NCBI GenBank assembly: GCA_004292755.1 | Contig: RDXE01000025.1 | Span: forward strand, 186,001 to 250,000 | Length of the DNA: 64,000 nucleotides | Source of the DNA: Alphaproteobacteria bacterium | GTDB lineage: Bacteria; Pseudomonadota; Alphaproteobacteria; Elsterales; Elsteraceae | Reading direction: 5' to 3' | Shown here: one piece after another, positions 6,975 through 48,024 of the stretch | Numbering within the stretch: the stretch's first letter is position 1 | Layout: each line of letters starts with the position of its first letter | The notes under the pieces: model-generated | The model's input: the letters and a program-made list of their open reading frames with translations, nothing else | Databases searched by the model: none | What the model was told of the DNA's origin: nothing | Translations under genes and position numbers: made by a program

Positions 6975-7424
6975 CTACCGCCGCGCGTCCAGGGCTTTGC
7001 GCAGGCGGGACAGCGGCTCGAGGAGGGTGCGAATCTCTGCCTCGCTTAACACTGTCCCAAGGTCGGCAAAGGCGGGGGCGAGGGAGGCGACGGCGGCGGT
7101 GCGGCGGGCGCGGCCGGCGTCGGTCAACCAGACCCGCTTGCCGCGGCCATCGACATCATCGGGGGTGATGGTGATCAGGCCGCGCTCCTCCAGGCGGTGC
7201 ATGGTGTTGGTGATCGCCCCCTTGGTCACCTGGAAGGCACGGGCCAAGGCGACGGGGCTTTTGCCGTCGCCAAGGCGCATGAGGTGATTCAACAGAATGA
7301 AATGCGCAAGCTTCAGGCCGTCCTCTTGGGCGGCCTCGAAGCGGGTGCGTGCCAGTTGTTCGATGATGCCGATTTCATTCAGCAGCGTGAACAACAGTGG
7401 GTCAGATGGGGTGTCGGTGGTCAC
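6975..7424 (-). CDS. MarR-family transcriptional regulator
   Basis: 149 residues, starting at a GTG whose bases overlap the stop of the upstream nitroreductase-like gene (GTGA). A winged-helix core is readable: the recognition region FQVTKGAITNTMHRLEERGL (residues about 64-83), followed by a wing with D-D-V-D-G-R-G-K-R-V-W-L-T-D-A-G, which carries the D-x-R signature of MarR proteins. The longer reading frame upstream is only the other-frame shadow of the nitroreductase-like gene. Overlap with that gene, and a doubled palindrome upstream of it, suggest an autoregulated operon responding to a small aromatic or oxidising compound (inference). Confidence 0.88.
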   Translation of the reverse strand: MTTDTPSDPLLFTLLNEIGIIEQLARTRFEAAQEDGLKLAHFILLNHLMRLGDGKSPVALARAFQVTKGAITNTMHRLEERGLITITPDDVDGRGKRVWLTDAGRARRTAAVASLAPAFADLGTVLSEAEIRTLLEPLSRLRKALDARR

Positions 7425-8587
7425 ACCCCGAGGATACGCGATCCGGCAGGCCAACGGGGAGTCGGCTGTGCCACAGCACCAGCAGGCAAGCGGCCGATGC
7501 GCGCGAGCATCTGCACCCGCGCCGGGGCAGTGGCACCCAGCCGCGTGTGGGCGGCAAGATAGGGCTCCGCCATGGCTGGAAACTCCTGCAAGGCTTGGCT
7601 GACTGGGTGGATCGCAAGGCCCGCAGCCGTCGCAGCCAAATTCAGGCGCAGCCAGTCGCGCCCAGCGGTCAACGCCTCGCGCAGTGAGCCTGCGGGCGTG
7701 AGCACCGCCAAATAGGCAGGTGTCGCCGCCAGCATTGCGCGATACCGGTCCACCATCGCGCGGTAGGCGGGATGGGCGGGCTCGCTGAAGCCAGCACGGG
7801 TCAACACGCCATTTGCCACCAGTTCGTCGAGGCCGGGTCCCCACACGCTCACTCCGTCAGGGCGGCTGGTCACCTCCGCCCGACCGAGACGCATCAAGGC
7901 GATGGTCTCGCCATGGGCAGCCGGGTCACCGGCTTCAATCTGCCACGCCCACCAGGTCAACTCCCGCCATGCCGTCACCTCGGCGGGGTCGAGGATCGTG
8001 ACCACGCGGGTGCCGTGGCGGGCAGCACTGGCAACGGAGTGCAGTTCAGCGGCAGTGGGCGGACGCGCAAGGTCGAATGGCAGCTTGGCGCTGCGCCGGT
8101 TGGGGGCAGCCGCGAACAGCGGATCGGCCTGCCCTGCCCCACCCGCCGCAAGGGAGAGGCGCGCGACGGGTCGCTGGTCAAGCCGTCCCTCCGGCACTCC
8201 AGCCGGGAACGGCTCCACCACCACCGCGCGCCCTTCGGCTGCTGCGGCGAGGCAGAACAACTCGACAGCCGCCCCAAGGCCAATGGTGATCTGGCGATCC
8301 AGCGGATCGGTGACTGGCAGGCGGCGGTCGAGGTCCGCGAACAGCAGCGCCTCGTCGCTGCCAATCAACTCCAACATCCAGGGTTGACGATTGTGCGGAT
8401 TGGGCGCCAGCACGGCCCAACTGAACGCCCGCACGCGCCAGTCCGGATGACGATTGGCGGGAGCCTCAGCCCAAGCCGCACGCGGGTCGCGACGCTCCAC
8501 TGCCAGCGCGGGGCGACCTGCGGCCAACACCCCTTCCACCAGCACCAGCCCAGCAGCGGCAGCAAACACAGTTCGACGGGTCACCAT
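7421..8587 (-). CDS. Nitroreductase-fold protein with N-terminal export-like signal
   Basis: 388 residues. The N-terminus MVTRRTVFAAAAGLVLVEG has twin arginines and a hydrophobic core, so Tat export is possible. The body shows nitroreductase (Acg-like FMN-binding) features: A-P-N-P-H-N-R-Q-P-W near residue 60, an FMN-phosphate-type R-R-S-A-K motif in the middle and a two-domain length, about twice that of classic NfsB enzymes. It is the first gene of the operon with marR, preceded by AGGAGCTGACC before ATG. Likely role: FMN-dependent redox protein acting on nitro- or quinone-type compounds, or an FMN-storage-like Acg protein; the substrate is not evident. Confidence 0.75.
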   Translation of the reverse strand: MVTRRTVFAAAAGLVLVEGVLAAGRPALAVERRDPRAAWAEAPANRHPDWRVRAFSWAVLAPNPHNRQPWMLELIGSDEALLFADLDRRLPVTDPLDRQITIGLGAAVELFCLAAAAEGRAVVVEPFPAGVPEGRLDQRPVARLSLAAGGAGQADPLFAAAPNRRSAKLPFDLARPPTAAELHSVASAARHGTRVVTILDPAEVTAWRELTWWAWQIEAGDPAAHGETIALMRLGRAEVTSRPDGVSVWGPGLDELVANGVLTRAGFSEPAHPAYRAMVDRYRAMLAATPAYLAVLTPAGSLREALTAGRDWLRLNLAATAAGLAIHPVSQALQEFPAMAEPYLAAHTRLGATAPARVQMLARIGRLPAGAVAQPTPRWPAGSRILGV

Positions 8588-8697: not shown

Positions 8698-10740
8698 TCA
8701 GCGATCCTGAAACTCGTCCTGCCCGGAATCGCGTTCGCGCAGGTAGTCCTCTGTGGTGCGGGCGCGGGGGCGGGGGGTGGCGGCGTAGGGGTCCAGGCCC
8801 TCGTTGATGGTGGCTTCGGCCCGGCAGCTTTCGCACATCTGCAAGAGGGTGAGCCGGTTCTGGTTGGCGCCGGAGAACATCCAATGGCCCATGCCAGACA
8901 GTTTCTCGGTCACTTTGGCGATTTGGGCGCGGGTGCCGAAGGGCTTGGCGCAGCGGATGCAGCAGAACGGCTCTTCCTGCTTCACCACGCGCGCGCCTGA
9001 CGACCAAGCAGCCAAATCGATCTGCGGGGCGATCTCGATCACGCCTTCTGGGCAGGTGGCGGCGCACAGGCCACACTGCACACACAGGCTTTCGGTGAAG
9101 CGTAAGGTTGGAGTGTCGGGATCATCGCCCAGCGCATCGGCTGGGCAGGCGGAGACGCAGGCAAGGCAAAGGGTGCAGCCCTCGGTGTTCACCACCACAG
9201 TGCCGAAGGGCGCTCCAGCGGGCAGCGCCAGACGCTCCACTGGTGCGGGGGCCACGCGCGCCAACTCTTTCACAGCGGTTTGCAGCACCTCCCGCTTGCC
9301 GCCGATCGGCAGGAAGGTCGCCGGCGCTGCGGCTGGGTGGCTGCGCGGCAGGATGCGCAACTGGCGCACCAACTCATCGGGATCGTCGGTCTCCACCAGG
9401 GTGACGCCATCGGCCCCATAGCCGTAACCGTCAAGCAGCGCGCGGGTCAGGTCGAGGGTGCGCAGCAGGCCTGCCGGATCATGCTTCGGCTTTGCCCGGC
9501 CAAGCAGGCGCACGGCAACCGCCCCCCAGGCAAACGCCGCCGCCATCACCTCTGGCCCCACCTGGGTGATCTCGTTGACACGCAAGGGCAACACAGTCGC
9601 GGGCAGGCCGTCGCCGAAGCGGGCAGCGGCATCAATCAATGCCTCGCCATGCTCCCCATCATGGATCAGCACCTGCGGCGCCAATCCACCGGCTGAGCGA
9701 TAGGTGGTGAGCAGCGTGCGCAGCCGCCGCATCAGGGCATCGGCCGTCGGCAGGGCATAGCTGGCAGCCCCGGTTGGGCAGGCCGCCGCGCATTGCCCGC
9801 AGCCAGCGCAGATCGCGGGATCAATGGCGACATGGTTGCCATCGGGCTGGATGGCACCGGCCGGGCAGAGGTCCAAGCAGCGGGTGCAGCCGGTCTTCTT
9901 GGACCGGGAATGGGCGCACAGGCTGTCGGTGAAATCGATGTAGCGCGGCTTGTCGAAGGTGCCGACAAGGTCGGCCGCGCGGGTGATCAGCGCCTCCACT
10001 TGGGCTGGCACGCGCGGATCGGCGCGCAGATAGCCAGCCCGCAGATCATCCCCCGGAAACAGCGACGGATCCCCGGTCAGATCCAGCAGGATGTCGCAAT
10101 GGGAGGTGGCACCATCGCGCGGCTCGCCAAAGCGCAAAGACGCCCGCGAACTGGGGCTAGGCTGCGCCAATTGATCGACGCTCAACTCAAACGCGCCGAG
10201 GTGCCCGCGCGCGGTGCGGATCGTGCCCTTCAGCACTGGAAAGCCCGTGACCCGTGGCGGTGCCACCTCGCCCGGTGCGTGCAGCAACACGGTGATGTCC
10301 AGCCGATCCGCCAGACGTGCAGCCACCTGCAGCGCCACCTCGTCGCGACCGTAGATCAGCGTGACGCCCTTGCTTTCCAGCGCCAGGAGGGTGAGTGCGG
10401 GCATCGGCTCGGCGGCTGCCGCAAACAGCGCTGCCATCTTCGGTGCGGCGCGCTCGGCCTCCACCGACCAGCCTGCCGTCTCGCGCACATTGACGAAGCG
10501 CGCGCGGTCAGCGAGGCCCAGGTCTTCGGCTGTTTCCTCAAACAGCGGCTGTTCCTGGGTGCAGCCGACGATGACATCGGGGGAGGCGGCGAGAATCGCT
10601 TTGAAGCGATCCAACTCCCGGCGGCACAGCTGCTCGGCCGGTTGGACCTGGCGACCGCAGGCTTTGGCAACCGTGGCCGGGTCGATCGGCATGGTTGCTT
10701 CGCACGAACACAGAATTATGGTCGACGCCTGATCCGCCAC
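8698..10740 (-). CDS. Multi-cluster 4Fe-4S protein of the formate dehydrogenase locus
   Basis: 680 residues from GTG 10740, chosen because GGGAGGG lies about 8 bp upstream. Two ferredoxin-like modules are visible. The first has CxxCxxxC at residues 285-292 and CxxCxxCxxxC at 311-321; the second has such motifs at 522-532 and 553-563. Extra Cys pairs near 593-597 (CCxxC) and 636-639 (CxxC) near the C-terminus resemble a metal-binding ribbon, and the N-terminus has C-S-C at 11-13. Residues 110-260 and 345-480 are Cys-poor alpha/beta regions. Proteins of this length occur with alphaproteobacterial Tat-exported formate dehydrogenases. It has no signal peptide, so a cytoplasmic electron-transfer or maturation role is inferred. 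Confidence 0.8.
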   Translation of the reverse strand: MADQASTIILCSCEATMPIDPATVAKACGRQVQPAEQLCRRELDRFKAILAASPDVIVGCTQEQPLFEETAEDLGLADRARFVNVRETAGWSVEAERAAPKMAALFAAAAEPMPALTLLALESKGVTLIYGRDEVALQVAARLADRLDITVLLHAPGEVAPPRVTGFPVLKGTIRTARGHLGAFELSVDQLAQPSPSSRASLRFGEPRDGATSHCDILLDLTGDPSLFPGDDLRAGYLRADPRVPAQVEALITRAADLVGTFDKPRYIDFTDSLCAHSRSKKTGCTRCLDLCPAGAIQPDGNHVAIDPAICAGCGQCAAACPTGAASYALPTADALMRRLRTLLTTYRSAGGLAPQVLIHDGEHGEALIDAAARFGDGLPATVLPLRVNEITQVGPEVMAAAFAWGAVAVRLLGRAKPKHDPAGLLRTLDLTRALLDGYGYGADGVTLVETDDPDELVRQLRILPRSHPAAAPATFLPIGGKREVLQTAVKELARVAPAPVERLALPAGAPFGTVVVNTEGCTLCLACVSACPADALGDDPDTPTLRFTESLCVQCGLCAATCPEGVIEIAPQIDLAAWSSGARVVKQEEPFCCIRCAKPFGTRAQIAKVTEKLSGMGHWMFSGANQNRLTLLQMCESCRAEATINEGLDPYAATPRPRARTTEDYLRERDSGQDEFQDR

Positions 10741-10855
10741 AGCACACCCTCCCGCCGCAGTCCGCCTCAGAGTCCCTAAGGCGTCCACGGTTGTCGTTGA
10801 ACGGCGATGCTATAAACATGACGCCCGAAGCGCTACCGGACACGGAACAGGGACA
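10741..10855. promoter_or_regulatory. Divergent promoter region of the fdh accessory genes
   Basis: This 115-bp gap separates the minus-strand Fe-S gene from the plus-strand accessory operon, so promoters for both must lie here or inside the genes. On the plus strand TATAAA at 10811-10816 could be a -10 box, with no matching -35 at normal spacing. On the minus strand only the Shine-Dalgarno of the Fe-S gene is clear. Confidence 0.35.
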
Positions 10856-11620
10856 ATGTCGATACGTTTGCCGGGCCGCGACCGCGCCCCCCTTGACCTT
10901 CCACCGGTGTTCACCCTGGTGCGGGTGGCTGAGGATGTCCGCGCCCACGACCACGCGATCGCCATTGCCGCCGAGGCAGGTGCAGCCACGCTGGTGTGGA
11001 CAGACCGCAATGATGTGGCTGAGTTCGCCGTGATTCTAGAACCAGCCGAGCCTTTGACCCGCGCGCGCGCCAGTTTCTTTATCGGCATGGCGGCGTTGTT
11101 GGATACGCTGGCCATGCGCGCACCACCGGAAAAGCCACTGACGGTCGACTGGCCGGGAGCGGTGCTGATGGATGGTGGCTTGCTCGGCGGCGGTCGCCTC
11201 GCTTGGCCAGACGATGCTGTGGAGGATGAGCCACCCGCCTGGGTGATATTCTCCGCCATGGTTCGGGTCGCCCTGCTGGACGTGGCGGAGCCAGGCCTCG
11301 CGCCTGCGGCCACCGGCATGGTGGAGGAAGGTTTTGACGAGGTGGACGTGGGCGATCTGCTCGCCGCCTTCGCTCGACACTTGATGGTGCATGTCGACAG
11401 TTGGCAGGAACGCGGGCTGAAAGGTGTGGTCTCAGAGTATTTGGGCTACCTTGCCACTGGGCGGGAGCGCGACCGGCGCGGCATCGATGTCAGCGGCGAT
11501 TTGGTGTTCGAGGGGGTGATGGGCAAAATTGGTGACCGCATTCCCTTGCTGCCCGCGCTGACCGAAGCCGCGTGGCTGGACCGCAGCAGCGGCGCCCCCA
11601 GGTTGGGGGGTGGTCTGTGA
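10856..11620 (+). CDS. Biotin/lipoate-ligase-fold protein (DUF4444 type), probably non-catalytic
   Basis: 254 residues. The middle region T-V-D-W-P-G-A-V-L-M-D-G-G-L-L-G-G resembles the K-W-P-N-D ... G-R-K-x-x-G core of biotin protein ligases, and a C-terminal DUF4444-like segment follows (from about residue 185). By eye, the ATP/biotin loop GRGRRG is absent and the catalytic Lys position holds Leu, so classical ligase activity is unlikely. The gene opens a five-gene run linked by 4-bp overlaps or short gaps, all typical of Tat-dependent formate dehydrogenase loci. I infer an accessory binding role in enzyme maturation. Confidence 0.72.
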   Translation: MSIRLPGRDRAPLDLPPVFTLVRVAEDVRAHDHAIAIAAEAGAATLVWTDRNDVAEFAVILEPAEPLTRARASFFIGMAALLDTLAMRAPPEKPLTVDWPGAVLMDGGLLGGGRLAWPDDAVEDEPPAWVIFSAMVRVALLDVAEPGLAPAATGMVEEGFDEVDVGDLLAAFARHLMVHVDSWQERGLKGVVSEYLGYLATGRERDRRGIDVSGDLVFEGVMGKIGDRIPLLPALTEAAWLDRSSGAPRLGGGL

Positions 11621-33508: not shown

Positions 33509-36500
33509 CTACTGGGTGGCACACCAGCGCCGCCAGACCTCGCGATAGGCCGCCTCAATGGCACGGGTGTAGGCAGGCCCACCGACCAGCGGGCTGGCAC
33601 TCATCTGCTGGCGCAGGCCAAGGCGGATCTCCCGCAGGTCATCAATCCGCTCAGACCATTCGACAGCGATTCCCAGGTAGTCCTGCTCGTCGGCTGCATT
33701 GAATGCCGTCAGACCAAGAGCTGCCTGAATGGCACCCGTGGCGCGGCTGGCAGGATTGCGACCGAGTTGCGTGATCACAGGAACGCCCATCCACAAGCTT
33801 TCCAGCGTGGTGATGCCACCATTCTGCGGATAGGGATCCAGCAGCAGGTCGATGTCCTTGTGGGCCTCCAGGTGCTGTCGGCGCGCCGTGCTGCCGCGCA
33901 GTTCCAGACGCTCAGTCGCCACACCACGCTTGGCGAACTCCTGGATCACCATCTCCCGGTTGGCCAGAGAATTGAGCTGTGGCGCCTTCACCAGCAACTG
34001 CGAGTCCGGGACGGCGAGAAGAATGCGAGCCCACAAATCAAACACCGGTTGGGTTAGCTTTGCCAATCGATTGAACGAGCCAAAGGTAAAGGGTCGTCCC
34101 CACAAGGATGGCAAGTCGGCAACCGCAGGGGATTGCGCTGGCGGCTCAATTGCAATCCAGGCTGGCAAATCCACCACCGTTTCCGCGATCAGCGAACGGC
34201 TTTCGTGTGGGATCAGAACAGGATCAACGAACAAGTAATCAATCGACTCAAGACCGGTACCACCCAGGGCACCCCAACCAGTGCCCTGAACCGGCGCGGG
34301 CTTGCGGGCAAAGACTGGCAGACGATTGCCCGCGGTGTGCCCGGACAAGTCGATCAAAATATCAATGCGGTCGGCTCTTACCATCTCGGCTACATCAGCG
34401 TCTGACTTACGCTCGATGCGTCGCCAGTCAACTGCACAGGCGCGGAAGCGCTCCGTCATGTCATCTTCGCCAAGTGTATGATGGTAGCACACGGTTTCAA
34501 TTTGGCTACGATCATGATACGGCAGAAACGACGCAGCAACATAGCCGACCACATGGTTTCGAAGATCGGCCGAGACATAGCCAACACGCAGTGGCCGTTC
34601 GATTACTTTGGTGACCGCGTAAACGGGATTTGCAGGACAAACCGGTGCGCCGTGTCGGGCCCACCAACGCTTGCGCTCTTCCGACAATTCTTCGAGGGTC
34701 GCTCGTGGGTCATAGCCAAGATTGAAGATCAAATTGGAGTGGGCCACAACCCAGGCTGGATCACTTTTGATCACCTCGCGCAGTTCATCAATGCCCTGCT
34801 CTACTTTTCCCAGGTCCAACAGAGTATTGGCACGATTATGCCGAATTCGCGTGTTATTTGGATCAATGGCGAGCGCACGCCCATAGGCCTCCACCGCTTC
34901 ATCAATCCGTCCCATCTCGCGAAACAGGTTGCCAAGGTTCATCAACGTTGTCGTGTTGACGGGATTGTCTTCAAGTGCTCCGTGGAAGGCCTCGAGTGCA
35001 TCTTCTTTGCGACCGCGCCGCTGCAGTGCCAGCGCCAGCGCCGCCTTGCCTGCAGAACCAGCCTTCTCTGCCACGTCAATGGCCTGGTCATACTCCTGCA
35101 TTTCCAGCAAGGACATGGCGATACCCGCCTTGGCCTGATCCTTGTCGATACAGACTTCACCCATCCTTTGGTAAACCAACACTGCGTCTTCAAACTGACC
35201 AAGTGCCTGCAGTGCCAAGGCCTCAGCCAAGTGAGCGGATGCTTGGGTTGGGTCCCTTTCAACTGCATCGAGCGCTGCCGCTAAAGCCTCTCGATGACGC
35301 AGAAGATAGCGTAGGGAAATGGAGCGAAAGATACTGGCCTCAGCCCCTTGGGAGTGTGTCTGGCGGTCCAGATGCTCGAGAACCTCTTCCCATTTCTGTT
35401 GGATCACCAACAAGCGCCCAAGATTGATAGTCGTTGCGGGGTCGTTGTGGCCCGCCAACAGGGCACGCCGATACAAGACCGCTGGCTCTGTGCCAGTCTC
35501 GCCCGACTGAACCAAAGCATCAGCGAGGCGGACCATCACCTCAACATCATCGGGGGCCAATCGCTGGGCCAAGCGAGCTGTTTCAACTGCCTCGGCGCCA
35601 CGCTCAAGATCGGTCAGCACTGCGGTGAGATTCATGGCCGCAATCACATCGGGCTGGAGAGAAAGCGCCCGGCGGTAGGCCTCGACTGCGTCTTCCAGCC
35701 TGCCGCTGGCGCGTAAGGCATTGCCGCGATTGATGATTGGCGACTGGAATTGGGGATTGATCTGCTCCGCACGCGCAAACTCGGCAATTGCTTCCTCTCG
35801 ACGCCCGGTTTCCAGCAACAAGACGCCTAGGTTATTCGCGGCCTCTGCCATCGCCGGATCGAGTGCCAGGCTCGTGCGATACAAACGCTCGGCCTCAACA
35901 GGCCGCCCGGTTGCGCGACTCAAGTTAGCCAGATCAAAGTGAGCAATGGCCAAGCGTGGGTCAGCGGCAATGGCTGCGCGATAGTGGCCCTCGGCATCAC
36001 TTAGGCGTTTGTCGAGTTCAGCCGTCACACCAAGACCATGGTGCGCCGTGGCAAGGCTCGGGTCCAACGCGCACGCGCGTTGAAACGCCTTGGCGGCCTC
36101 AGCAGGCTGCTGCTCCGCCAGCAGCGCAGAGCCATAGTGAAGATGAAAGCGCGCGCGTTTTGGGTCTAGCGCGAGGGCTTGGCGATAGGCCTCCAATGCT
36201 TCGCTGCCACGCCCGGCACCGCGCAGCAACTCTGCCAGATCAAACGCACAATCTGGCTGGTTGGGGCGCAGGGCAAGGGTGCGCCGATAGGCCTGGATCG
36301 CCTGCTCTGTCTCGCCGCGCTGCCACTGCACGGCCGCCAGATCGCGCGCCGCGTCCGCATCGGTCGGTGCCGCTGCTGCCGCTTGGCCAATCAGCGCTGC
36401 TGCTTGGTCAAGGTGGCCCTGCTCCCACAAGCAGCAGCCCAACAGGTGGGTCGCCTTCGGATGACCTGGCTGGAGGGCCAAGACTTGGCGATAGCCAGCC

Positions 36501-36568
36501 ATGGCATCGCCAAGGTTGCCTGCTTGGTGACGGGCGACGGCCAGGGATAGCTGCTCATCAACGGACAT
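33509..36568 (-). CDS. TPR-GT41 (O-GlcNAc transferase-like) glycosyltransferase 1
   Basis: 1019 residues from ATG 36568. Residues 1-640 are a long array of 34-residue TPR units (A-L-x-L-x-P-x-x-x-x-A-x-x-x-L-G). The last 370 are a GT41/SPINDLY catalytic domain: R-V-G-Y-V-S-A-D-L-R-N-H (base His region), D-I-L-I-D-L-S-G-H-T, A-P-V-Q-G-T-G-W-G, K-A-P-Q-L, and L-D-P-Y-P-Q-N-G-G-I-T-T-L-E-S-L-W-M-G-V-P (UDP-sugar site). The family moves a sugar from UDP-sugar to Ser/Thr of proteins. It follows GT 2 by 26 bp in one operon divergent from the flagellin gene; flagellin is the likely acceptor (inference). Confidence 0.9.
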   Translation of the reverse strand: MSVDEQLSLAVARHQAGNLGDAMAGYRQVLALQPGHPKATHLLGCCLWEQGHLDQAAALIGQAAAAAPTDADAARDLAAVQWQRGETEQAIQAYRRTLALRPNQPDCAFDLAELLRGAGRGSEALEAYRQALALDPKRARFHLHYGSALLAEQQPAEAAKAFQRACALDPSLATAHHGLGVTAELDKRLSDAEGHYRAAIAADPRLAIAHFDLANLSRATGRPVEAERLYRTSLALDPAMAEAANNLGVLLLETGRREEAIAEFARAEQINPQFQSPIINRGNALRASGRLEDAVEAYRRALSLQPDVIAAMNLTAVLTDLERGAEAVETARLAQRLAPDDVEVMVRLADALVQSGETGTEPAVLYRRALLAGHNDPATTINLGRLLVIQQKWEEVLEHLDRQTHSQGAEASIFRSISLRYLLRHREALAAALDAVERDPTQASAHLAEALALQALGQFEDAVLVYQRMGEVCIDKDQAKAGIAMSLLEMQEYDQAIDVAEKAGSAGKAALALALQRRGRKEDALEAFHGALEDNPVNTTTLMNLGNLFREMGRIDEAVEAYGRALAIDPNNTRIRHNRANTLLDLGKVEQGIDELREVIKSDPAWVVAHSNLIFNLGYDPRATLEELSEERKRWWARHGAPVCPANPVYAVTKVIERPLRVGYVSADLRNHVVGYVAASFLPYHDRSQIETVCYHHTLGEDDMTERFRACAVDWRRIERKSDADVAEMVRADRIDILIDLSGHTAGNRLPVFARKPAPVQGTGWGALGGTGLESIDYLFVDPVLIPHESRSLIAETVVDLPAWIAIEPPAQSPAVADLPSLWGRPFTFGSFNRLAKLTQPVFDLWARILLAVPDSQLLVKAPQLNSLANREMVIQEFAKRGVATERLELRGSTARRQHLEAHKDIDLLLDPYPQNGGITTLESLWMGVPVITQLGRNPASRATGAIQAALGLTAFNAADEQDYLGIAVEWSERIDDLREIRLGLRQQMSASPLVGGPAYTRAIEAAYREVWRRWCATQ

Positions 36569-36594
36569 GGTCGTTCCCAATGGTCAGGTAAGGA

Positions 36595-39570
36595 TCAGGC
36601 CGATGCACACCACGTGCGCCACAGCTGCCGGTAGGTGGCCTCCACCGCCCGCGCATAGGCTGCTGGGTTGCCGACCGGATGGCTTTCGAAGCGCGCCCGC
36701 AACCCGGCGCGCAGCTGGGCAAGGGCTGGAATGTCCGCCGCAAGGCGCGTGGCGATGCGAACATAGTCCGCTCGGTCACGCGCATTGAAATGCTCCAGCC
36801 CGATCGAGGCTTGGATGGCGGCCGTTGCGCGACTGGCCGGAGTCGACAGTGGCAAAGTGACCGCGGGAACCCCCATCCACAAGCCCTCCAACGAGGTCAC
36901 GCCACCGGCTTGCGGAAACGGGTCCAGCTGCACATCGATCTTGCCATAGGCTGCCAGATGGTCGCGCCGCGCCGTATTGCCTAAAAATCGCAGGCGATCC
37001 TTCGAGATGCCATACTGACCAAACGCCTTTGCCATGCGGTCTTGATTGGATTGGTCACCAAGCTGTGGCGCTTTCATGAGCAGGTTGGCGTCTGGCACGG
37101 CCATCAACACCTCTGCCCAGAGGGACACAACCTCCGGCGTGACTTTGGCCAGTCGATTGAAGCTGCCGAAGGTGATGCCGCCCCCAGCAAGCGCTGGCGT
37201 TGGCGCGACCGGCTGGGCCATGGACGGGTCTGGCGGCATGAAGGCGATCCAGCAGGGCAGATCAATCACGGTCTCGGCAAACCGTGCCCGATCCTCGGCA
37301 GGGATCAACACTGGGTCTGCCAGCATGTAATCCATGGTCTTGAGACCCGTCCCCCCCAACTGGCCCCAGGCGTGGACCTGCACCGGTGCTGGCTTGCGGG
37401 CAAAGGTAAGCAGGCGATTGCCCGACGTGTGGCCCGAGACATCCACCAGGATATCAATCCGATCCTCGCGAATACGGTCGGCCAAAACATCGTCGGGCAC
37501 CCCCAACACCATGCGCCACTCAGCGGCCTTCGCGCGAAATCGCTCCGTCATGTCGTCTTCCAAGGACGACGTTGAATAACAGACGGTCTCAATGACCGCG
37601 GGGTCATGCTCAAACAGAATTGGCGCCAGCACATAACCGGCAGCGTGGTGCCGGAAGTCTCCCGACACATAGCCAACTCGCAGCCGTCGCTCCGGGTTGC
37701 GATCATTGGTGTGGGTAACCGGTCGAAACCGCGGGGCGCCATGGCGCTCCCACCACCGACGGCGCTCCGCCTGCTGATCTTCCGCGTTGAACTGGGGTAG
37801 GTAACCCATCGTGAAGATCAAATTGCTGTGTCCCTCAGGCCAGTCTGGACGCCGCTTCAGCGCCTCGCGATAGGCCTCGACACTTTCTTCCATGGCGCCG
37901 ACATCAACCAGCGTGGTCGCGAGGTTGTTGTAGACCTCAGCAGAGCCATCGGTCAGCCGAATCGCCTCGCGATAGGCCTCAACGGCCTCCTGAACCCGAT
38001 GCATCCCCAGCAAACAGTTGCCAAGATTAATGTAGATCAGGGAATTGTGCGGATTGAGCCGCAAGGCATCCTGGAACGTGGTTTCAGCTTCGCCGTTCCG
38101 TCCCAGTGCCTGCAAGGCCACGCCCACTGTCACCAGCGCATCGGGATCGCCCGCGGCAAAGGCCACTGCGGTGCGGGCCTCAGCAAGGGCCCGTTCCGGC
38201 AAACCGCCCTCCAGCAGGCACAGTGCGAAGAGGTTGCGCGTGTGGGCGTTCAGCGGATCCTTGGCAACCATCCGCTCCATCACGGCCAGAGCTCGCTCCA
38301 GGCGCCCAAGGCGCTGCCACTGCTTGGCGATATGGAACTGGTCTAGGCTCGTCTCCGTCGCAAGAGCCTCAGCCTGCGCCAGACACTCCGCAGCTGCCTC
38401 TCTGTCCCGTGCCGCGAACCAAGCCTCCGCCCGGGCCAATAGAACGGCGACAGTGATATCGCAGTCGGTCAGCACAGTCAGCGCATCCTTGGGCCGTGCC
38501 TCTTTCACAAGGAAGTGTGCGAGCGCGATCTTCGGGGCCACATTCATCGGGTCAGCTGCCACAACCCGCCGCAGTGTTGCTTCTGCTCGCTCAGCCTGCC
38601 CACTGCGCTGCCAAATCTCCGCCACGCGCAACAGATGGACCACCTCACCCACACGATTGCTTAGCGCCTCCAGTTCCGGGACGACCCGCTCCGGCGCCTC
38701 CGCCACTAGGGCTTCGGCCCGACCCAAAGCGGCCGTCATGTCACCCGGAGCAAGTGTGAGCGCTGCCTCAAATGCCGTGACAGCACCGCCGAAATCCCTG
38801 CCTGTCAGCTTGATCTGGCCCAACTGCGTCCATTCCACGGGATCTTCGGGGAAGGCTTCGACCAAGCGTGCCTGGATCGACAGTGCCTCACCGGTCCTGG
38901 ACATGGCCGAGAGGGCGAGAGCCTTCGCGCCCAACCCCTGCCGGTTGTCCGGGGCCTGCTGCAACGCGCGGTCTGCACATGTCAGCGCTCGTTTGACGTC
39001 TCCCGCCACAAGGTATTGGCCGCTGAGTGTGGCAAGCGCCGTCACATCATCGGGTGCCACAGCCACCGCACGTTGTGCGTAGTGCAGCGCTTGGCTGGCA
39101 TCACCCTGACGCTCGGCCAAGGTAGCGAGATTGACCAGACTGCCGACGTGCGCGGGGTCTTGGGAGAGCGCTGCCAGCAAATGCTCCCGTGCGCCTGCGT
39201 GGTCTCCGGCATCAATCAAGGCTGTGCCAAGGGCGTGGCGCACATCTGGGTCGTTGGGTTGAGCGCGCTGGGCAGCGCGATACTGAACCAGTGCCCCAGT
39301 GCGGTCACCCGTGGCTGTTAGCGCATGTCCAAGGTTGACGCGCGCAGTGGCAAATCCTGGATCAAGGCTGACAACCTTCTTCAAGGGTGCCAGCGCTTGG
39401 TCTGGACGACCGGTCTGCAGTGCCACCACGCCAAGCAGATTCAGGGCGTCAACATGGCGCGGCGCTTTTGCCAATACTTGGCGATACCCGGCCGCGGCGC
39501 CCTCCATGTCGCCTGCCTCGTGCTTCGCCAGTGCCGCGCCAAACGCAGTGTCGATGTCCCGTGACGCCAT
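36595..39570 (-). CDS. TPR-GT41 (O-GlcNAc transferase-like) glycosyltransferase 2
   Basis: 991 residues from ATG 39570; the in-frame sequence upstream has no family likeness. TPR units fill residues 1-610, and a GT41 domain residues 620-991 with R-V-G-Y-V-S-G-D-F-R-H-H, D-I-L-V-D-V-S-G-H-T-S-G-N-R, P-V-Q-V-H-A-W-G-Q-L-G-G-T-G, M-K-A-P-Q-L and L-D-P-F-P-Q-A-G-G-V-T-S-L-E-G-L-W-M-G-V-P. It is closest to GT 1 of the three. Its start is 234 bp from the flagellin start in the opposite direction, so the two probably share a regulatory region. It has no export signal and would act on flagellin in the cytoplasm before export. Confidence 0.9.
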   Translation of the reverse strand: MASRDIDTAFGAALAKHEAGDMEGAAAGYRQVLAKAPRHVDALNLLGVVALQTGRPDQALAPLKKVVSLDPGFATARVNLGHALTATGDRTGALVQYRAAQRAQPNDPDVRHALGTALIDAGDHAGAREHLLAALSQDPAHVGSLVNLATLAERQGDASQALHYAQRAVAVAPDDVTALATLSGQYLVAGDVKRALTCADRALQQAPDNRQGLGAKALALSAMSRTGEALSIQARLVEAFPEDPVEWTQLGQIKLTGRDFGGAVTAFEAALTLAPGDMTAALGRAEALVAEAPERVVPELEALSNRVGEVVHLLRVAEIWQRSGQAERAEATLRRVVAADPMNVAPKIALAHFLVKEARPKDALTVLTDCDITVAVLLARAEAWFAARDREAAAECLAQAEALATETSLDQFHIAKQWQRLGRLERALAVMERMVAKDPLNAHTRNLFALCLLEGGLPERALAEARTAVAFAAGDPDALVTVGVALQALGRNGEAETTFQDALRLNPHNSLIYINLGNCLLGMHRVQEAVEAYREAIRLTDGSAEVYNNLATTLVDVGAMEESVEAYREALKRRPDWPEGHSNLIFTMGYLPQFNAEDQQAERRRWWERHGAPRFRPVTHTNDRNPERRLRVGYVSGDFRHHAAGYVLAPILFEHDPAVIETVCYSTSSLEDDMTERFRAKAAEWRMVLGVPDDVLADRIREDRIDILVDVSGHTSGNRLLTFARKPAPVQVHAWGQLGGTGLKTMDYMLADPVLIPAEDRARFAETVIDLPCWIAFMPPDPSMAQPVAPTPALAGGGITFGSFNRLAKVTPEVVSLWAEVLMAVPDANLLMKAPQLGDQSNQDRMAKAFGQYGISKDRLRFLGNTARRDHLAAYGKIDVQLDPFPQAGGVTSLEGLWMGVPAVTLPLSTPASRATAAIQASIGLEHFNARDRADYVRIATRLAADIPALAQLRAGLRARFESHPVGNPAAYARAVEATYRQLWRTWCASA

Positions 39571-39804
39571 CTCTGATCCAACCGCAGCAACCCAAATCCC
39601 GCCGATCCATACCTCAAGCGGTGCCCAGATGCCATTGCCGCGGCCTCCCCCGAATCCTGGACCGATCACGATCCGCCAACTGCAGCAGTTTGATCTAGTT
39701 GAATGCGGCCTCAAGTTCTGGTTCTATCCACGGGTCGCGATCACCAGCTGGCGCGATGACCCGTCAGAATGCGGGTGTCTCACTCTGAAACGAGGACCAC
39801 GTCC
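39571..39804. promoter_or_regulatory. Divergent region between glycosyltransferase 2 and flagellin
   Basis: This 234-bp gap must hold promoters for both sides. I looked for sigma54 (GG-N10-GC) and sigma28 patterns towards flagellin and found no convincing match. Towards the glycosyltransferase, a weak GG-N10-GC occurs near 39586-39603. The flagellin Shine-Dalgarno (CGAGGACC) lies about 10 bp before its ATG. The promoter boxes themselves are unresolved. Confidence 0.4.
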
Positions 39805-41007
39805 ATGGCAGACATTAAGCTTTCTTCGTCCACTCGGGCGAACCTGCTCTCGCTGAACAACACCAAGAGCTTGCTGGACAAGACCTCCGGTCGTCTCGCC
39901 ACCGGCCTGAAGGTCGCGTCGGCGGTGGATAACGCACCGGCGTTCTTTGCTGCACAAGCGCTGACCAATCGCGCGAACGACTTCACCTCTGGCCTGTCCG
40001 CCATTGAGCAAGGCTTGAACGCGCTGCAGTCGGCTCTGTCGGGCCTGACCGCGATCACCAAGCTGGTTGAGCAGCTGCAGGGCACGCTGACCAGCCTGCT
40101 CAACGCATCGACACCTGGCTCGTCCGCATCGCTGACCGCCGACTACAACAAGCTTCTCGGTCAGATCGATGCGCTGGCGAATGACACCAGCTATCAGGGC
40201 GCAAACCTGATCAACAACAGCTCTCAGACCCTGAATTTCAGCTTCGGTGGCCTGGGTTCTGCTGTTGGCCTGACCATCTCCGCCTACCGCAATGACTCGC
40301 TCGGCCTCGGTCTGACCACCGTGGCAACCAACCTGTTCTTTGCGTTCACGACTACCATCGACTCGACCCCGTCGCGGGCATCGACGGCGTCGATTGCGGC
40401 GATTTCCTCGATCGCATCCTTCGCATCCATCGCCGGCGTCGCTTCGCAGGGTTCGGTCGATTCAGTCGCCTCGTCTGCGTCGATTGCGTCCTCTGCCAGC
40501 GTGAACAGTGTCGCTGAAACCTCTCCGGGCGCTGGCAACAGCATTCCGTCGGCCGCCAGCCGTCCGTCGGTTGCTTCCGTTGCGTCGGTTGCCAGCCGTG
40601 AGTCCATCGCGGCCGTCAGCTCGGCGCCGTCGACGGGCACCACTGCCTCCACGCCGTCGCGCGCCTCGGCAGCGTCAACGGCCAGCCTCAACTCCCGTGC
40701 TGACGTCACGGTGCCAGGTGTGAACACCGCGCTGGTGGCCAGCCGCCAGACCCTCGTGAGCAACGCTCTGGCGAAGCTGCGTGCGGACAGCGCCTCGCTC
40801 GGTTCGCAGAACGCCGTCCTGACGGTGCGGTTGGACTTCGCGAAGTCCTACACCGCCAACCTGAAGGCGGGTTCGGACCAGCTGACCCTGGCCGATCTCA
40901 ACGAAGAAAGCGCCAACCTCACCTCGCTGCAGACCCGTCAGCAGCTTGGCGTGGTGTCGCTGAGCATCACTGCCCAGTCCGAACAGAGCATTCTGCGTCT
41001 GTTCTAG
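39805..41007 (+). CDS. fliC: Flagellin with Ser-triplet central domain
   Basis: 400 residues from ATG 39805. Residues 1-170 form the N-terminal D0/D1 region: helical, with L-x-S-x-x-R-A-N-x-L-S-L, T-S-G-R-L-A-T-G-L-K-V-x-S-A and Y-x-x-L-L-x-Q-I-D-x-L-A-N-D-T-S-Y-Q-G-x-N-L-I. Residues 315-400 form the C-terminal D1/D0 helix ending in L-R-L-F. Between them, residues 187-297 have no globular D2/D3 look; Ser recurs at every third position. The filament subunit is exported by the flagellar system. Terminator follows directly. The neighbouring GT41 enzymes make this domain a likely O-glycosylation target (inference). Confidence 0.93.
   Translation: MADIKLSSSTRANLLSLNNTKSLLDKTSGRLATGLKVASAVDNAPAFFAAQALTNRANDFTSGLSAIEQGLNALQSALSGLTAITKLVEQLQGTLTSLLNASTPGSSASLTADYNKLLGQIDALANDTSYQGANLINNSSQTLNFSFGGLGSAVGLTISAYRNDSLGLGLTTVATNLFFAFTTTIDSTPSRASTASIAAISSIASFASIAGVASQGSVDSVASSASIASSASVNSVAETSPGAGNSIPSAASRPSVASVASVASRESIAAVSSAPSTGTTASTPSRASAASTASLNSRADVTVPGVNTALVASRQTLVSNALAKLRADSASLGSQNAVLTVRLDFAKSYTANLKAGSDQLTLADLNEESANLTSLQTRQQLGVVSLSITAQSEQSILRLF
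40363..40695 (+). repeat. Ser-x-x triplet repeat in the flagellin central domain
   Basis: Residues 187-297. In block A (187-235) Ser occupies 15 of 17 every-third positions; in block B (246-297) Ser occupies 16 of 18 and Thr one more. The register shifts once, in a short E-T-S-P-G-A-G-N linker. The third residue of the unit is mostly Ala and the second Val, Ile, Thr or Arg (S-V-A, S-I-A, S-R-A). Ser codons vary (tcg, tcc, tct, agc), so the order is kept at protein level, not as a recent DNA duplication. Confidence 0.9.
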
Positions 41008-41044: not shown

Positions 41045-41074
41045 GGGGCGGCCTTCGGGCCGCCCCTTTTTTTT
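41045..41074 (+). terminator. Rho-independent terminator of the flagellin gene
   Basis: A perfect 9-bp stem GGGGCGGCC / GGCCGCCCC with a TTCG tetraloop is followed by eight T. It lies 38 bp after the flagellin stop and is the strongest terminator in the window, fitting a highly expressed single-gene transcript. Confidence 0.93.
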
Positions 41075-41093
41075 GGCTCTCTCCGCCACACTG

Positions 41094-41207: not shown

Positions 41208-44200
41208 ATGACCACCCAGACCGTTTCCCTCGAAGATGCGTTTCAGCTTGGCCTCAACGCGCATGAGCGCGGTGACATCGCCCATGCCAAGCACATCTAT
41301 GACCGCATTCTTGCCGTTCGGTCGGATTTCGCAGGTGTGCTGTTCTACCGGGGCTTGGTCGCCGACGCAGAAGGCGACATCGACGCGGCGATCCGGTTTG
41401 TGGAGCGTGCGGCCAGTGCCGAGCCGCAAATCGCGGACTTCCAGGCCACACTCGGCAGCTTGGCACTGAAGAAGGGCAGTGCGCCCTTGGCGCTCCAGCG
41501 GTTTCAGAAGGCTCTGAGCCTAGAGGCAAATCACCCCGATGCCATGACAGGGCTTGGGCTGGCGTACCTTGCGTTGCGGCGGCGGGACCTTGCGGTCGAT
41601 CAACTGCGCAAGGCTGTCGCGGCACACCCACGCCAGCGTGAGGCTCTTCTGGCATTGGCACGCGCTCTTATGAGCCGCGGGGAACCACGCGAAGCCACCG
41701 GATGGTTTCAGCAGGTACTTGAGATCGACTCCACCTCTGCTGAGGCTTATCTCGGCTTGGCCTCAGCCTTACTCGCCCAGGACCGGTTGACTGAGGCAGG
41801 GATCGCAGCCGATGCAGCCGCTCACGTTGCTCCAGAGTTACCCGCGAGCCACCTGATTCTCGGCCAGATCGCGCGCCAGAAGGGCGATCTGGACGAAGCA
41901 CTATTCTGCTATCTAGAGGCATTGCGGCTCGATCCAAAGTCCGCAGAGGCGCATTATAATATTGCAAATTGCCACTATGATCTCGAATCAATTGATCGTG
42001 CGATTGAATACTATAAGAAGGCACTGGAGCTACGCCCCGATAACATCGATGTTTTGACCAATCTCGGCATCGCAGTTCGGCGGTCGGGTGATCTAACCAG
42101 TGCGGAGCAATACCTGTCACGCGCGTTGCAGCTAGGCCGAGACAACACCGAGGCAATGCGATCGCTTGGTTCGCTCGAGGAAGACCGCGGTGATCTTGAT
42201 GGGGCACGTCGGCGTCTTGAGCGCGCGTTCGAACTTGAGCACGCGGAATTCCTGAAGGACCAACTACCTGCGAAGGGCGTTAAAGCCACGAGCGCGGCAG
42301 AGCTTGCCGAACGGCTTGGACGCCTGCGGAAGATCGTTCGACAGGGGCAGGACCTGTATGATTTTGCTGGACAGTTGGCCCAATTCAACATTGAGGCCAA
42401 CCACCATGACAGAGTGCTGGACATTTATCAGAAACAGTCAAGTTTAACGGCGCGGTGGCTGGTCGCCCTTGGGCTGTTGGCAGAAACTCTGTCAAGCACA
42501 GGGGAAATTGAAGAAGCCGAGAAATGCCTGAAGCGTGCAATTGAAGTGCGCAATCAGCTCGCAGGTTGCCACTACAACGCCGGGATTTACGCTGGTAACC
42601 TGAAGAAGACTGAACTTGCTGTTACTGAGTTTGAGCAAGCCCTGAAGATCACGCCAGACGATGTTCTGATTGGCAGTGCTCTGGGCGCGCAATACCTCAA
42701 TGTTGGCCGCGCCTATGATGCCGAAGCCATCATTCTCAAAATTCTTGAGAAAGAGCCAGACCGTGCCGGTGACTTGAACAACCTGGGTCTTGCTTACAAC
42801 GCAATGCACCGCCTGGGCGATGCGCTGGAGGCCTTGCGCAAGGCAGTCAAGCACAACCCAAGCTACGCTGGCGGCTGGTCTCACCTTGGCGGCGTGTATC
42901 ACACTCTGGGCCGGATTTCAGAGTCAAAGGCAGCTTATTTGAAAGCTTTGGAGCTTGAGCCCGACTCGCCGCAAGCACACAACAATCTGGCTTTGGTTTA
43001 CCAAGCGATCACCGAGTACGGCAAGTCCATCGAGCATCTACGCCGCTCCCAAGAACTACAGCCGGACAATGCTGCCTTCCACTCGAACTTGTTGTTTGGA
43101 ATGCAATACGACCCCGAGGTGACGGCCCGAGATCTGTACCTCGAGACTGTCCGGTGGGGAGAGTTGCACGCATCCAAATTCTATCCCACCAATAAGGTTT
43201 ACGCGAACGTCAAGGATCCTGAACGGAAGCTGCGCATTGGCTATCTGTCGCCGGATTTCCGCGGACATTCGTGCAGTTACTTTGTCTATCCGCTGTATCA
43301 AAACCACGACCGCTCAAAGGTTGAAGTGTTCAGCTATGCGGAAGTGGCTGCCCCAGACTTCTGGACGGAAAAGTTCCGTGAAGCATCGGACGGCTGGCGC
43401 ATCACCTGTGGTGTGCCGGACGAAGAATTGGCGAAGCGCATCGAAGCTGACCAGATTGACATTCTCGTTGATCTGTCCGCTCACACCGGTGGTGCACGCG
43501 CCCTGGTCACGGCGTACAAACCGGCCCCAATCCAAGTGAGTTGGTTTGGTCTTGGCAACACGACGGGCATCAAGACCATCGATTACATTTTGTCTGACCC
43601 GTATTTTGCACCGGAAGGTACCGAGCGGTATTATTGCGAGGAAGTCTATCGACTGCCGAGCACGCTGTACTGCTACAAATCATTGCACGAATTCCCGGAG
43701 GTCGGGCCACTTCCCGCCCTGCGCAATGGATACGTCACCTTTGCCAGCTTCTCGCGCACGGTGCGCTACAACAAGCGGGTGATCGCAACCTGGTCGCGCC
43801 TGCTGAATTCGGTTCCGAACTCGCGACTGATGCTGAACACAGTGTCCTTCAGCGATGAGGAGACCCGTGACATGTTCCATGGCTTCTTCGAAGCTCATGG
43901 CGTTAGCCGCGATCGTGTCTCGCTGATTTACACCAACCCACCAACCAAGACTTGGGCGACCTACAACGAGGTGGACATCGCCCTGGACCCCTTCCCCCAC
44001 AATGCAGGATTGACCACCTGTGAAGCCTTGTGGATGGGATGCCCTGTGTTGACGTTGGCAGAGCGGCCACCGCAAGGGCGGTATGGCGCCAGCTACCTGA
44101 ACAATGTTGGCCTGCCGCAATTTGTCGCCACAACGGAAGATGAGGTGGTCAGCATCGGCCACCATTGGGCAACCCACATCGATGAGCTCGCAGCCCTGCG

Positions 44201-44312
44201 GGCTGGACTGCGACCGCAGATGGCGTCCTCGCGCCTGTCCGACGCCAAGACCTTTGCGCATGATTTGGAGACGGCCTTTCGGGACATGTGGCTACGGTAC
44301 TGCGCCGACTAG
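41208..44312 (+). CDS. TPR-GT41 (O-GlcNAc transferase-like) glycosyltransferase 3
   Basis: 1034 residues, GGAAGGTG before ATG 41208. TPR units fill residues 1-650, some classic ([15 protein letters not shown]). The GT41 domain (665-1034) has [39 protein letters not shown] and [21 protein letters not shown]. It differs from GT 1 and 2 in the loop before L-D-P, which has T-K-T-W where they have A-R-R-x-H. The DNA at about 41.9-42.7 kb is less GC-rich than the flanks. It lies just downstream of flagellin and may use a different sugar or acceptor site. Confidence 0.9.
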   Translation: [1034 protein letters not shown]

Positions 44313-45334: not shown

Positions 45335-46063
45335 ATGTCGATCATGTCGCTGTTTTCGTCCGGTCGGAGTGATCGGTCAAAGTTCGCGGACTTCAAGCCC
45401 ATCGATATTGGCTCGGCGCTGATTCCGCCAGCACCTCCGAAGGAATTGTCGGAGACCCAGTGGTCGCCGATGACCGCGCCCAAGGCGAAGACACCAGGCT
45501 CCTCGGCGACGTGGCCGGTGGAGTACCAACGGGCGATGCGCCGCAACGTGGTGGATACCCCCTCGGGCGCTGACGCTGGCCGCATCAGTCAAGACAACGG
45601 TCGGCTTGCCGTATTCGGTCGCCTCCAGCCTGGCGACACGTCGGACACCTACCGCTTCTCTGTTGGGTCAAACGGTAAGTTCCAACTGTTCGCTCCCAAC
45701 CCTGCCTATAATGCAAAGGACGAGAACAGCCGTACCTCCCTGGGTGACGTCCGCCTCCAAGTGCTGGATCGTAACGGTACAGTGATTGCGGATAGTGAAC
45801 CGGTGGCTGGCTTGGCCTTTTCGGCCTGGGTCAACATGTCCACCGAGGGGTTGAAGGGTCATGATCTTGAAGCCGGGCAATACACAGTCAAGTTGACCCG
45901 GAAGGACGGTGTCGACGCCAAGAAGGGGTTAGACTACACATTGTTTATGGTTCAGGGCGACCCTGGTCGGACAACTTTCTACACCGTGGAGCGGCAGCCG
46001 CAGCGCCAGGGTCCGAGGCAGGTTCAAGCCACACCCAGTCCAATCGTGAATCTTTTTTCCTGA
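45335..46063 (+). CDS. Hypothetical protein with a PPC-like beta domain
   Basis: 242 residues from ATG 45335, after AGGGAGA. The N-terminal 75 residues are Pro/Ser/Lys-rich and look disordered. Residues 80-215 look like a jelly-roll of the pre-peptidase C-terminal (PPC) type: G-R-L-x-P-G-D-T-S-D-T-Y-R-F-S-V, D-V-R-L-Q-V-L-D-R-N-G-T-V-I-A-D-S and L-E-A-G-Q-Y-T-V-K-L-T. PPC domains are usually extracellular, yet no signal peptide is present; export through the flagellar apparatus is therefore conceivable. It sits between FlaG-like and sugar-synthesis genes. Function unknown; a flagellar link is inferred from position. Confidence 0.65.
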   Translation: MSIMSLFSSGRSDRSKFADFKPIDIGSALIPPAPPKELSETQWSPMTAPKAKTPGSSATWPVEYQRAMRRNVVDTPSGADAGRISQDNGRLAVFGRLQPGDTSDTYRFSVGSNGKFQLFAPNPAYNAKDENSRTSLGDVRLQVLDRNGTVIADSEPVAGLAFSAWVNMSTEGLKGHDLEAGQYTVKLTRKDGVDAKKGLDYTLFMVQGDPGRTTFYTVERQPQRQGPRQVQATPSPIVNLFS

Positions 46064-46096: not shown

Positions 46097-47170
46097 GTGA
46101 CTGAACCACACGCGCCGAAACCGCGGCCCAATGCGGTGTTCTCAGGCCAGACCATCCTTGTGACTGGAGGCACCGGCAGCTTTGGCGGTGCGTTCGCCAA
46201 GTATCTGTTGCAGACAGATGTTGGTGAAATTCGAATTGTCAGTCGAGATGAAGCCAAGCAGGAAATGATGCGGGTCGCGTTTGCCGATCCGCGCTTACGC
46301 TTCTTCTTGGGCGACGTGCGTGATGAACGCAGCATTGATATCGCTATGAAGGGTGTTAACTACGTGTTCCACGCGGCTGCTTTAAAGCAAGTGCCTGCGT
46401 GTGAGCTGTTTCCCGATCAGGCGGTGATGACCAACGTGATGGGCTCCCGCAACGTGATCGACAGTGCCATTCGGCACGGTATTCGGCGGCTGGTCTCAAT
46501 CTCAACCGACAAGGCGGTTTACCCCGTCAATGCCATGGGCATGTCCAAGGCGCTGATGGAAAAGCAAGTTCAGGCCCGGGCGCGCACGCTGACCGATGAC
46601 GACACCGTGTTGGCCGTGGTGCGCTACGGCAATGTGATCGCCTCGCGCGGCTCTGTGGTGCCCGTGTTCTTGGAGCAGATGAAAACCGGGCAACCGTTAA
46701 CCATTACGGCCCCGGAGATGACGCGCTTCCTGCTCACGCTGGACGATGCGATCGCGCTGATTGAGTTCGCTCTGCTGCACGCCAAGCAAGGCGACATCTT
46801 TGTGCGCAAATCTCCCGCCTCCACTGTCGCTGACCTCGCGACGGCGATGGTTGCAATGTTCGGCTACGCAGGCGGGCAGCGAACCATCGGTGTGCGCCCT
46901 GGCGAGAAGCTGCACGAAACCCTGTGCACGGCCAACGAGCTCGCCTCAGCCGAGGAGTTTCCGGACTACTTCCGGATCGCGATGGATGCCCGCACGATTG
47001 ACTCAGATCCGCTGATCCGCGGAAAACGGCCAAGCCTGAACGGCACTGACTATTCGTCCGATACCGCGCGTCAATTGCCAGTGGGCGATATTCAGGCTGT
47101 GCTGGAAAGCCTGTCGGTCGTGCAAGACGCGCTGACGGCCAGCCGCGCGCGGTCCCTGTCCGCATCATGA
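46097..47170 (+). CDS. UDP-GlcNAc 4,6-dehydratase/5-epimerase-like (CapE/WbjB/FnlA type)
   Basis: 357 residues from GTG 46097. An SDR fold with T-G-G-T-G-S-F-G (23-30) binds NADP. The active site reads S-T-D-K-A-V-Y-P-V-N-A-M-G-M-S-K, with Met147 in place of Tyr in the usual Y-x-x-x-K. That substitution favours the CapE/WbjB branch over PseB/FlaA1. Such enzymes turn UDP-GlcNAc into a 4-keto-6-deoxy hexose with inverted C5. The next gene overlaps it by ATGA and encodes a reductase. Together they may make a UDP-2-acetamido-2,6-dideoxy-L-hexose as donor for flagellar or surface glycosylation (inference). Confidence 0.8.
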   Translation: MTEPHAPKPRPNAVFSGQTILVTGGTGSFGGAFAKYLLQTDVGEIRIVSRDEAKQEMMRVAFADPRLRFFLGDVRDERSIDIAMKGVNYVFHAAALKQVPACELFPDQAVMTNVMGSRNVIDSAIRHGIRRLVSISTDKAVYPVNAMGMSKALMEKQVQARARTLTDDDTVLAVVRYGNVIASRGSVVPVFLEQMKTGQPLTITAPEMTRFLLTLDDAIALIEFALLHAKQGDIFVRKSPASTVADLATAMVAMFGYAGGQRTIGVRPGEKLHETLCTANELASAEEFPDYFRIAMDARTIDSDPLIRGKRPSLNGTDYSSDTARQLPVGDIQAVLESLSVVQDALTASRARSLSAS

Positions 47171-48024
47171 CCCTGGCCCTCCCGCCCGCCTCCGGGCGGA
47201 TCGTGCTGTTGGGTGCTGGCGGCATGCTGGGCACGGCCATGCAGGTGGTGTTGACCCGCGCCGGGTTCACCGTCGATGCCGTCACCCGAACTCGGTTTGA
47301 CGTGGCGTCTGGTCGGGTGGAGGACCTGCCGCTGGCTGGCGCGCGCGCCGTGGTGAATGCAGCTGGGCTGATCAATCGGCGCTTGGCAACCGATTCAGAG
47401 GCCGCCTTTTGGCTGATCAACGGGCTGTTTCCCCGTCGCTTGGCCGATGCCTGCGGGCGGGTGGGCGTGCCCATGGTCCACATCTCCACCGATTGTGTGT
47501 TCGATGGGGCGACGGGTCTCTACTGGGAAGACAGCGCGCCGACCGCGACCGATCTCTACGGTCGCTCCAAGCAGTTTGGCGAGCCGGCCAATGCGATGGT
47601 GTTGCGCACCTCCATCATTGGACCGGAGCGGCAGCATTTTTATTCACTGTTGTGCTGGTTCCTCGGCGTGACTGACCGCTGCCAGGGCTATCGCAATCAC
47701 CTGTGGAACGGCATGACGACGCTGGAGTTGGCGCGCATCGTTGCTGCATTGATCGCTAACGACCGCGTCCAGCCGGGCCTGTTCCACTTGCACTCCGAAG
47801 ATGTCTCGAAGGATCAGTTGCTGCGCCTGATGGCGGCCGCCTTCAACCATGCTGTTGAGATCGACACGGTTGACGACCGTCAGGCAAAGGATACGCGCCT
47901 GCGCACCCGCCACCCGGACCTGCTACTGGCCGCCCAGGTGCGTCCTCTGGCGGACCAATTGGCCGAAGCGGCCCAGGTGGCCGACCGCCGCGGCCACTGG
48001 CTGGATTTGCCAGAGCTTGCCTGA
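47167..48024 (+). CDS. RmlD-like nucleotide-sugar 4-ketoreductase
   Basis: 285 residues from ATG 47167, overlapping the dehydratase stop. N-terminal G-A-G-G-M-L-G (NADP loop), then V-N-A-A-G-L-I-N, S-T-D-C-V-F-D-G and the catalytic Y-G-R-S-K. This is the dTDP-4-dehydrorhamnose reductase fold. Next to a CapE/WbjB-like enzyme, the substrate is more likely a UDP-4-keto-deoxyhexosamine; the V. cholerae O37 pair WbvB-WbvR (giving UDP-L-RhaNAc) is a known precedent. No 2-epimerase gene follows in the window. The terminal sugar remains unproven. Confidence 0.75.
   Translation: MTLALPPASGRIVLLGAGGMLGTAMQVVLTRAGFTVDAVTRTRFDVASGRVEDLPLAGARAVVNAAGLINRRLATDSEAAFWLINGLFPRRLADACGRVGVPMVHISTDCVFDGATGLYWEDSAPTATDLYGRSKQFGEPANAMVLRTSIIGPERQHFYSLLCWFLGVTDRCQGYRNHLWNGMTTLELARIVAALIANDRVQPGLFHLHSEDVSKDQLLRLMAAAFNHAVEIDTVDDRQAKDTRLRTRHPDLLLAAQVRPLADQLAEAAQVADRRGHWLDLPELA

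Follow-up and report, generated by a model that had tools for sequence, protein, structure and literature searches.

An alphaproteobacterial flagellin with serine at every third residue of its outer domain, a likely glycan acceptor encoded among GT41-type glycosyltransferase genes

Closest described systems

Dense and periodic acceptors of O-glycans are known from the wall-anchored serine-rich repeat adhesins of the GspB/Fap1 kind, in which serine occurs at about every second position. In the Maf-dependent flagellins of Aeromonas, Campylobacter and Clostridium, several O-glycans are attached to serine or threonine residues of the central domain, as is proposed here too, and these systems need the synthesis of nonulosonic acids; to our knowledge, no strict spacing of sites has been described for them. 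The nearest worked-out analogue of the present locus is FlmG of Caulobacter, a flagellin O-glycosyltransferase with TPR and GT-B parts that binds flagellin via its TPR part and glycosylates it in the cytoplasm (PMC7591256). The sugar used by FlmG is pseudaminic acid made with NeuB. In FljK no outer domain is inserted, and four threonine residues are modified (as cited in PMC7591256).

The window analyzed here, a stretch of 64,000 nucleotides, is located on contig 2 of a draft genome of 4.2 Mb that is 99.9% complete. Its flagellin resembles the FljK-type flagellins of Caulobacter crescentus, the best structural match, in the fold of the filament core. Unlike the situation in the FlmG system, the present locus encodes three GT41 proteins (g1, g2 and g3), each about 1030 residues long, composed of TPR repeats and a Glyco_transf_41 domain and showing a clear sequence relation to the O-GlcNAc transferase (OGT) and the O-fucosyltransferase SPINDLY of this family.

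The flagellin and its serine register

The flagellin gene (39805..41007, + strand) encodes a protein of 400 amino acids that exceeds the cut-offs of both Pfam Flagellin_N (E 9.8e-13) and Flagellin_C (E 3.3e-8), which places it among the bacterial flagellins. Its N-terminal D0/D1 segment, matched by Flagellin_N at residues 11-139 (39835..40221, + strand), is predicted to form helices with pLDDT values of mostly 76-92, and the C-terminal D1/D0 segment covered by Flagellin_C (residues 317-400; 40753..41004, + strand) to form helices with pLDDT values of 73-90. In the AlphaFold2 model D0 and D1 were well folded, and the nearest solved structures were the Caulobacter FljK, FljM and FljN filaments (Foldseek match to FljK with E 4.5e-10). 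As FljK-type filament proteins comprise only about 270 residues, residues ~185-300 are inserted at the outer tip of D1, with predicted strands on either side at 179-184 and 301-306; with normal D0/D1 ends and the insert at that position, this agrees with the original prediction, in which the serine-rich stretch had been assigned to the variable D2/D3 domain of a flagellin.

When residues are numbered from the ATG at 39805, residues 187-297 correspond exactly to 40363-40695. The first S-x-x block (residues 187-235; 40363..40509, + strand) has serine at 15 of 17 register positions (187, 190, 193, 196, 202, 205, 208, 214, 217, 220, 223, 226, 229, 232 and 235). The second (residues 240-297; 40522..40695, + strand) has serine at 17 of 20 (240, 246, 249, 252, 255, 258, 261, 264, 267, 273, 276, 282, 285, 288, 291, 294 and 297), and between 235 and 240 the register slips by one step. 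With array boundaries picked by eye in the window protein, both blocks together therefore show serine at 32/37 register positions plus one threonine (residue 279). In 20,000 composition-preserving shuffles of the array, 10.6 ± 2.3 serine pairs were obtained at lag 3 and not a single shuffle reached the 25 pairs found, while only 4 pairs occur at lag 1 and 2 at lag 2; the same test gave 0/20,000 for each of four homologues and for a flagellin from another lineage (locus L057, described below). In contrast to the serine-rich repeat adhesins, the array thus has 25 pairs at lag 3 versus 2 at lag 2, and its carrier is a flagellin. A serine at every third residue between 40363 and 40695 had been predicted from the sequence alone, and the count and the shuffles bear out both positions and register; of the earlier tally, 31/35 plus one threonine, the single threonine stands and the exact counts differ. 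The serine triplet is confirmed, and it is unusual.

The array is built from whole triplets of the form Ser-(Val/Ile/Arg)-Ala, in which mostly valine, isoleucine or arginine follows the serine and the third position is mostly alanine, at times proline or asparagine. Serine codons of the array mix TCN and AGY, like those of the remainder of the gene, and Tandem Repeats Finder detected only two arrays of 23-28 bp in the flagellin gene, with about three 9-mers each. Because both codon families are used and no DNA tandem repeat is present, the triplet is held at the protein level, and DNA repeat expansion is ruled out as its origin.

Both flagellins found in the window genome are of the S-x-x type, the paralogue being 65% identical to the window's flagellin, and a genus mate possesses at least three near-complete flagellins, 58-73% identical to the window's, all with the S-x-x pattern. 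For these five flagellins (two of the window genome and three of the genus mate), pairwise identity amounted to 71% at register positions, to 46% and 57% at the +1 and +2 positions, and to 61% in the N-terminal D0/D1 (177 residues). Serine occupies 18 register columns in 5/5 sequences, and conservation extends to the two breaks of the register, at 211 and 270. Relatives that retain the composition without the register had been named beforehand as the contrary outcome; the register is retained, and judged from the alignment it is kept by selection. Since the relatives are poor in serine at about 211-220, the window protein has the fullest array. Threonine is found at 12/185 register cells over the five sequences, once in the window flagellin. 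Arg 191, 253 and 265 are invariant, 20/25 arginines of the domain directly follow a serine, glycine is rare, and proline mostly stands directly before serine, which disfavors helix and sheet.

Neighboring glycosyltransferase and sugar-nucleotide genes

Divergent from the flagellin gene lies g2 (36595..39714, - strand; ORF coordinates, the true start may be downstream), whose product matches PF13844 (E 4.2e-48) and many TPR models, and behind it g1 (33509..36580, - strand; PF13844, E 6.7e-38). The third gene, g3 (41208..44312, + strand; PF13844, E 5.2e-42), begins 200 bp downstream of the flagellin gene, and its product shows a relationship to the structures of human OGT and Arabidopsis SPINDLY. 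Between flagellin and g3, a hairpin that resembles a terminator and has a run of T can be read from the sequence at ~41046-41077. In the genus mate (loci L033/L051), the orthologous flagellin is likewise flanked by three TPR+GT41 genes in the order and orientation of the window, the g3 orthologue ending at a contig end ahead of the lysine site discussed next.

Residue K665 is essential in SPINDLY (PMC9715652). With residue roles taken from that work and positions assigned by comparing the alignment by eye with the motif of SPINDLY, the equivalent of K665 is lysine in g1 and g2 (FNRLAK in both) and arginine in g3 (FSRTVR). Unlike in SPINDLY, the T748 equivalent is isoleucine in g1, valine in g2 and leucine in g3, and the Y744 equivalent is glutamine in g1 and g2 and histidine in g3. 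These residues suggest that g1 and g2 are likely to be active with an altered donor site; g3 may be inactive and may act as a binding or scaffolding partner.

The window genome contains 16 GT41 genes and that of the genus mate about 20; some members of the family have 1-2, and another has none. GT41 genes adjoin flagellins without S-x-x too, and in the set of loci many further flagellin genes have TPR-GT41 genes nearby. Because of the 16 GT41 genes in the genome and of those beside flagellins without S-x-x, the evidence from proximity is weaker than it appears. The number of GT41 genes was also rejected as a marker of S-x-x flagellins, as genomes without S-x-x have as many and one S-x-x genome has none. 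The presence of three flanking TPR+GT41 genes in two species, on which the original prediction had not drawn, makes O-glycosylation of the flagellin more likely.

A protein of 242 residues, encoded at 45335-46063 behind the GT41 cluster and ahead of the sugar-nucleotide genes, matched no Pfam or NCBIfam family. The sugar-nucleotide genes encode a predicted UDP-GlcNAc 4,6-dehydratase of the FnlA/PseB kind (46097..47170, + strand), scoring below the curated cut-offs of both FnlA (352 bits, cut-off 730) and PseB (306 bits, cut-off 408), and an RmlD-like sugar-nucleotide reductase (47167..48024, + strand; PF04321, E 5e-24). They are followed by genes for FliK, FlgD, hook proteins (FlgE), FliF, FliG and FliN and, further downstream, for a sigma-54 activator and an FHIPEP (FlhA-type) protein. 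NeuB (PF03102) had no match in the window genome or in that of the genus mate, whereas the Caulobacter control was positive. An Epimerase_2 gene is present elsewhere in the window genome, which together with the absence of NeuB makes pseudaminic and legionaminic acid less likely. The Maf model PF01973 also gave no match in the window genome, although it matched only archaeal controls. Without NeuB, the genome differs from Maf-dependent systems, which need nonulosonic acid synthesis, and the FlmG/pseudaminic acid system does not fit, since a TPR glycosyltransferase is encoded beside the flagellin but NeuB is absent. The sugar genes are compatible with a sugar of the FucNAc type.

Explanations for the array and its occurrence elsewhere

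The triplet, its conservation, the gene neighborhood and the absence of NeuB are in our view best explained, with a probability of roughly 0.6, if residues 187-297 form an extended, mucin-like O-glycan acceptor of low complexity, inserted on a short FljK-like core and glycosylated in the cytoplasm by the adjacent GT41 enzymes; we infer that a glycan-acceptor function of the array is likely. The TPR superhelix of at least one adjacent GT41 enzyme would grip the flagellin while it is still unfolded in the cytoplasm, and single sugars would be added by the catalytic domain to many regularly spaced serines before export, so that at the filament surface O-glycans would stand in a dense row on each subunit. 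The nucleotide of an N-acetylated deoxyhexose, formed by the FnlA-like and RmlD-like enzymes, would probably serve as donor, and not pseudaminic or legionaminic acid. If this is true, every subunit would be a natural acceptor with about 30 serines at equal distances, served by a dedicated cytoplasmic GT41 set. The locus would then be tractable for studying how glycosyltransferases of the TPR type select and space their sites, which has long been asked for OGT and SPINDLY; the glycan coat of the filament would be denser and more regular than in described flagellins. Some findings argue against glycosylation: threonine is scarce at register positions and GT41-type enzymes usually accept threonine too, the S-x-x flagellin of L057 sits in a genome without detectable GT41, and the T748 equivalent is replaced in g1-g3 with the essential lysine gone in g3.

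The triplet might instead represent a folded repeat (a polyproline-II-like bundle, a 3-10-like structure or a solenoid) in which each column faces one way and serine serves packing or hydrogen bonding, instead of or besides carrying sugars. The Val/Ile and Ala columns also keep period three, gaps have lengths divisible by three when the two blocks are aligned with each other, serine is favored over threonine, the breaks at 211 and 270 are conserved, and the position of proline, mostly before serine, is compatible with polyproline-II. We regard such a fold as unlikely, however, since AlphaFold2 gave pLDDT values over the array of 28-51 with 24 sequences and of 35-42 with the four closest only, and no Pfam repeat family matched the array even at E 10. 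A polyproline-II-like or solenoid structure, as favored in the original prediction, thus found no support in either run, with pLDDT under 50 along almost all of the array; few sequences were available to AlphaFold2, so that a fold might exist despite these values. A left-handed hexapeptide beta-helix, considered on account of V-A-S-S-A-S runs, was discarded, as neither a Pfam match (up to E 10) nor a predicted solenoid was obtained. Kinship to a solved structure by sequence was rejected as well, matches in the PDB being only noise, and so was a collagen-like triplet protein, as the constant residue is serine and not glycine. The simplest reading of the models is that the array would be an extended chain, with or without sugars.

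An unfolded array could also be a hydrophilic, disordered, low-complexity spacer, in which the register stems from a short duplicated unit and not from selection. The domain is of low complexity and unfolded in the AlphaFold2 models, and both blocks resemble one cassette, PSxASRASVASxxSIASxxSVAAV, but weakly so, as 0 to 73 of 500 triplet shuffles reach the score. Against a spacer, which we hold to be quite improbable, stands the fact that among sequences 58-73% identical to the window's the register serines are more conserved than both the rest of the domain and the N-terminal D0/D1, and that the same pattern recurs in another lineage (L057) in a domain without detectable homology. Modification might, lastly, occur chiefly at arginine, the S-R-x-S arginines being methylated by a TPR protein resembling arginine methyltransferases, with serine as recognition context. 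In both species the paralogous S-x-x flagellin is followed downstream, at a distance of 2-3 kb, by a gene for a TPR + PRMT_C protein and then one for a hexapeptide acetyltransferase (L032:12946-14607 and L034:3741-5375), and the invariant arginines and the frequency of arginine directly after serine would suit this idea. It is nonetheless very improbable, as the PRMT_C gene does not adjoin the window flagellin, the methyltransferase assignment comes from weak Pfam matches, and arginines are few compared to about 30 serines.

Apart from the extended glycan acceptor preferred here, it is conceivable, though rather doubtful, that the array belongs to a new kind of outer domain, an acceptor rail, extended or ordered by its glycans, to which divergent GT41 enzymes would attach sugars at three-residue spacing and which would have arisen at least twice. 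One other true S-x-x flagellin was found among 160 loci, in a Rhodospirillales metagenome bin (L057), with serine at 12/14 and 8/9 positions. When the L057 domain served as query, the flagellins of the window genome were not detected, so that the two arrays are apparently independent of each other. Its genome has no detectable GT41 but contains NeuB, so that another enzyme would be responsible if the L057 array were glycosylated. ManC-like and GDP-mannose 4,6-dehydratase-like genes (L057, 11163-13783) lie directly downstream of this S-x-x flagellin.

With a profile of the window's domain, no comparable domain was detected among 385 genomes from the class and 398 from the phylum, the four weak matches in the class (E 2e-5 to 7e-4) all falling in short open frames of 53-152 residues. 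A phage origin of the array was rejected, with no match in PHROGs or phage records, and among plasmid-borne relatives flagellins were found, none of them spanning 80% of the query. The original prediction had stated that no flagellin with such a triplet was known; this holds for the open-access literature, in which none was found, but sequence data contain further examples. A partial, weaker S-x-x pattern is seen in the Opitutales (Verrucomicrobiota) locus L060, where two flagellins with partial S-x-x runs (6606-7838 and 9839-11200) are related to these alphaproteobacterial flagellins, and a GT41 gene is located about 1.2 kb downstream of them.
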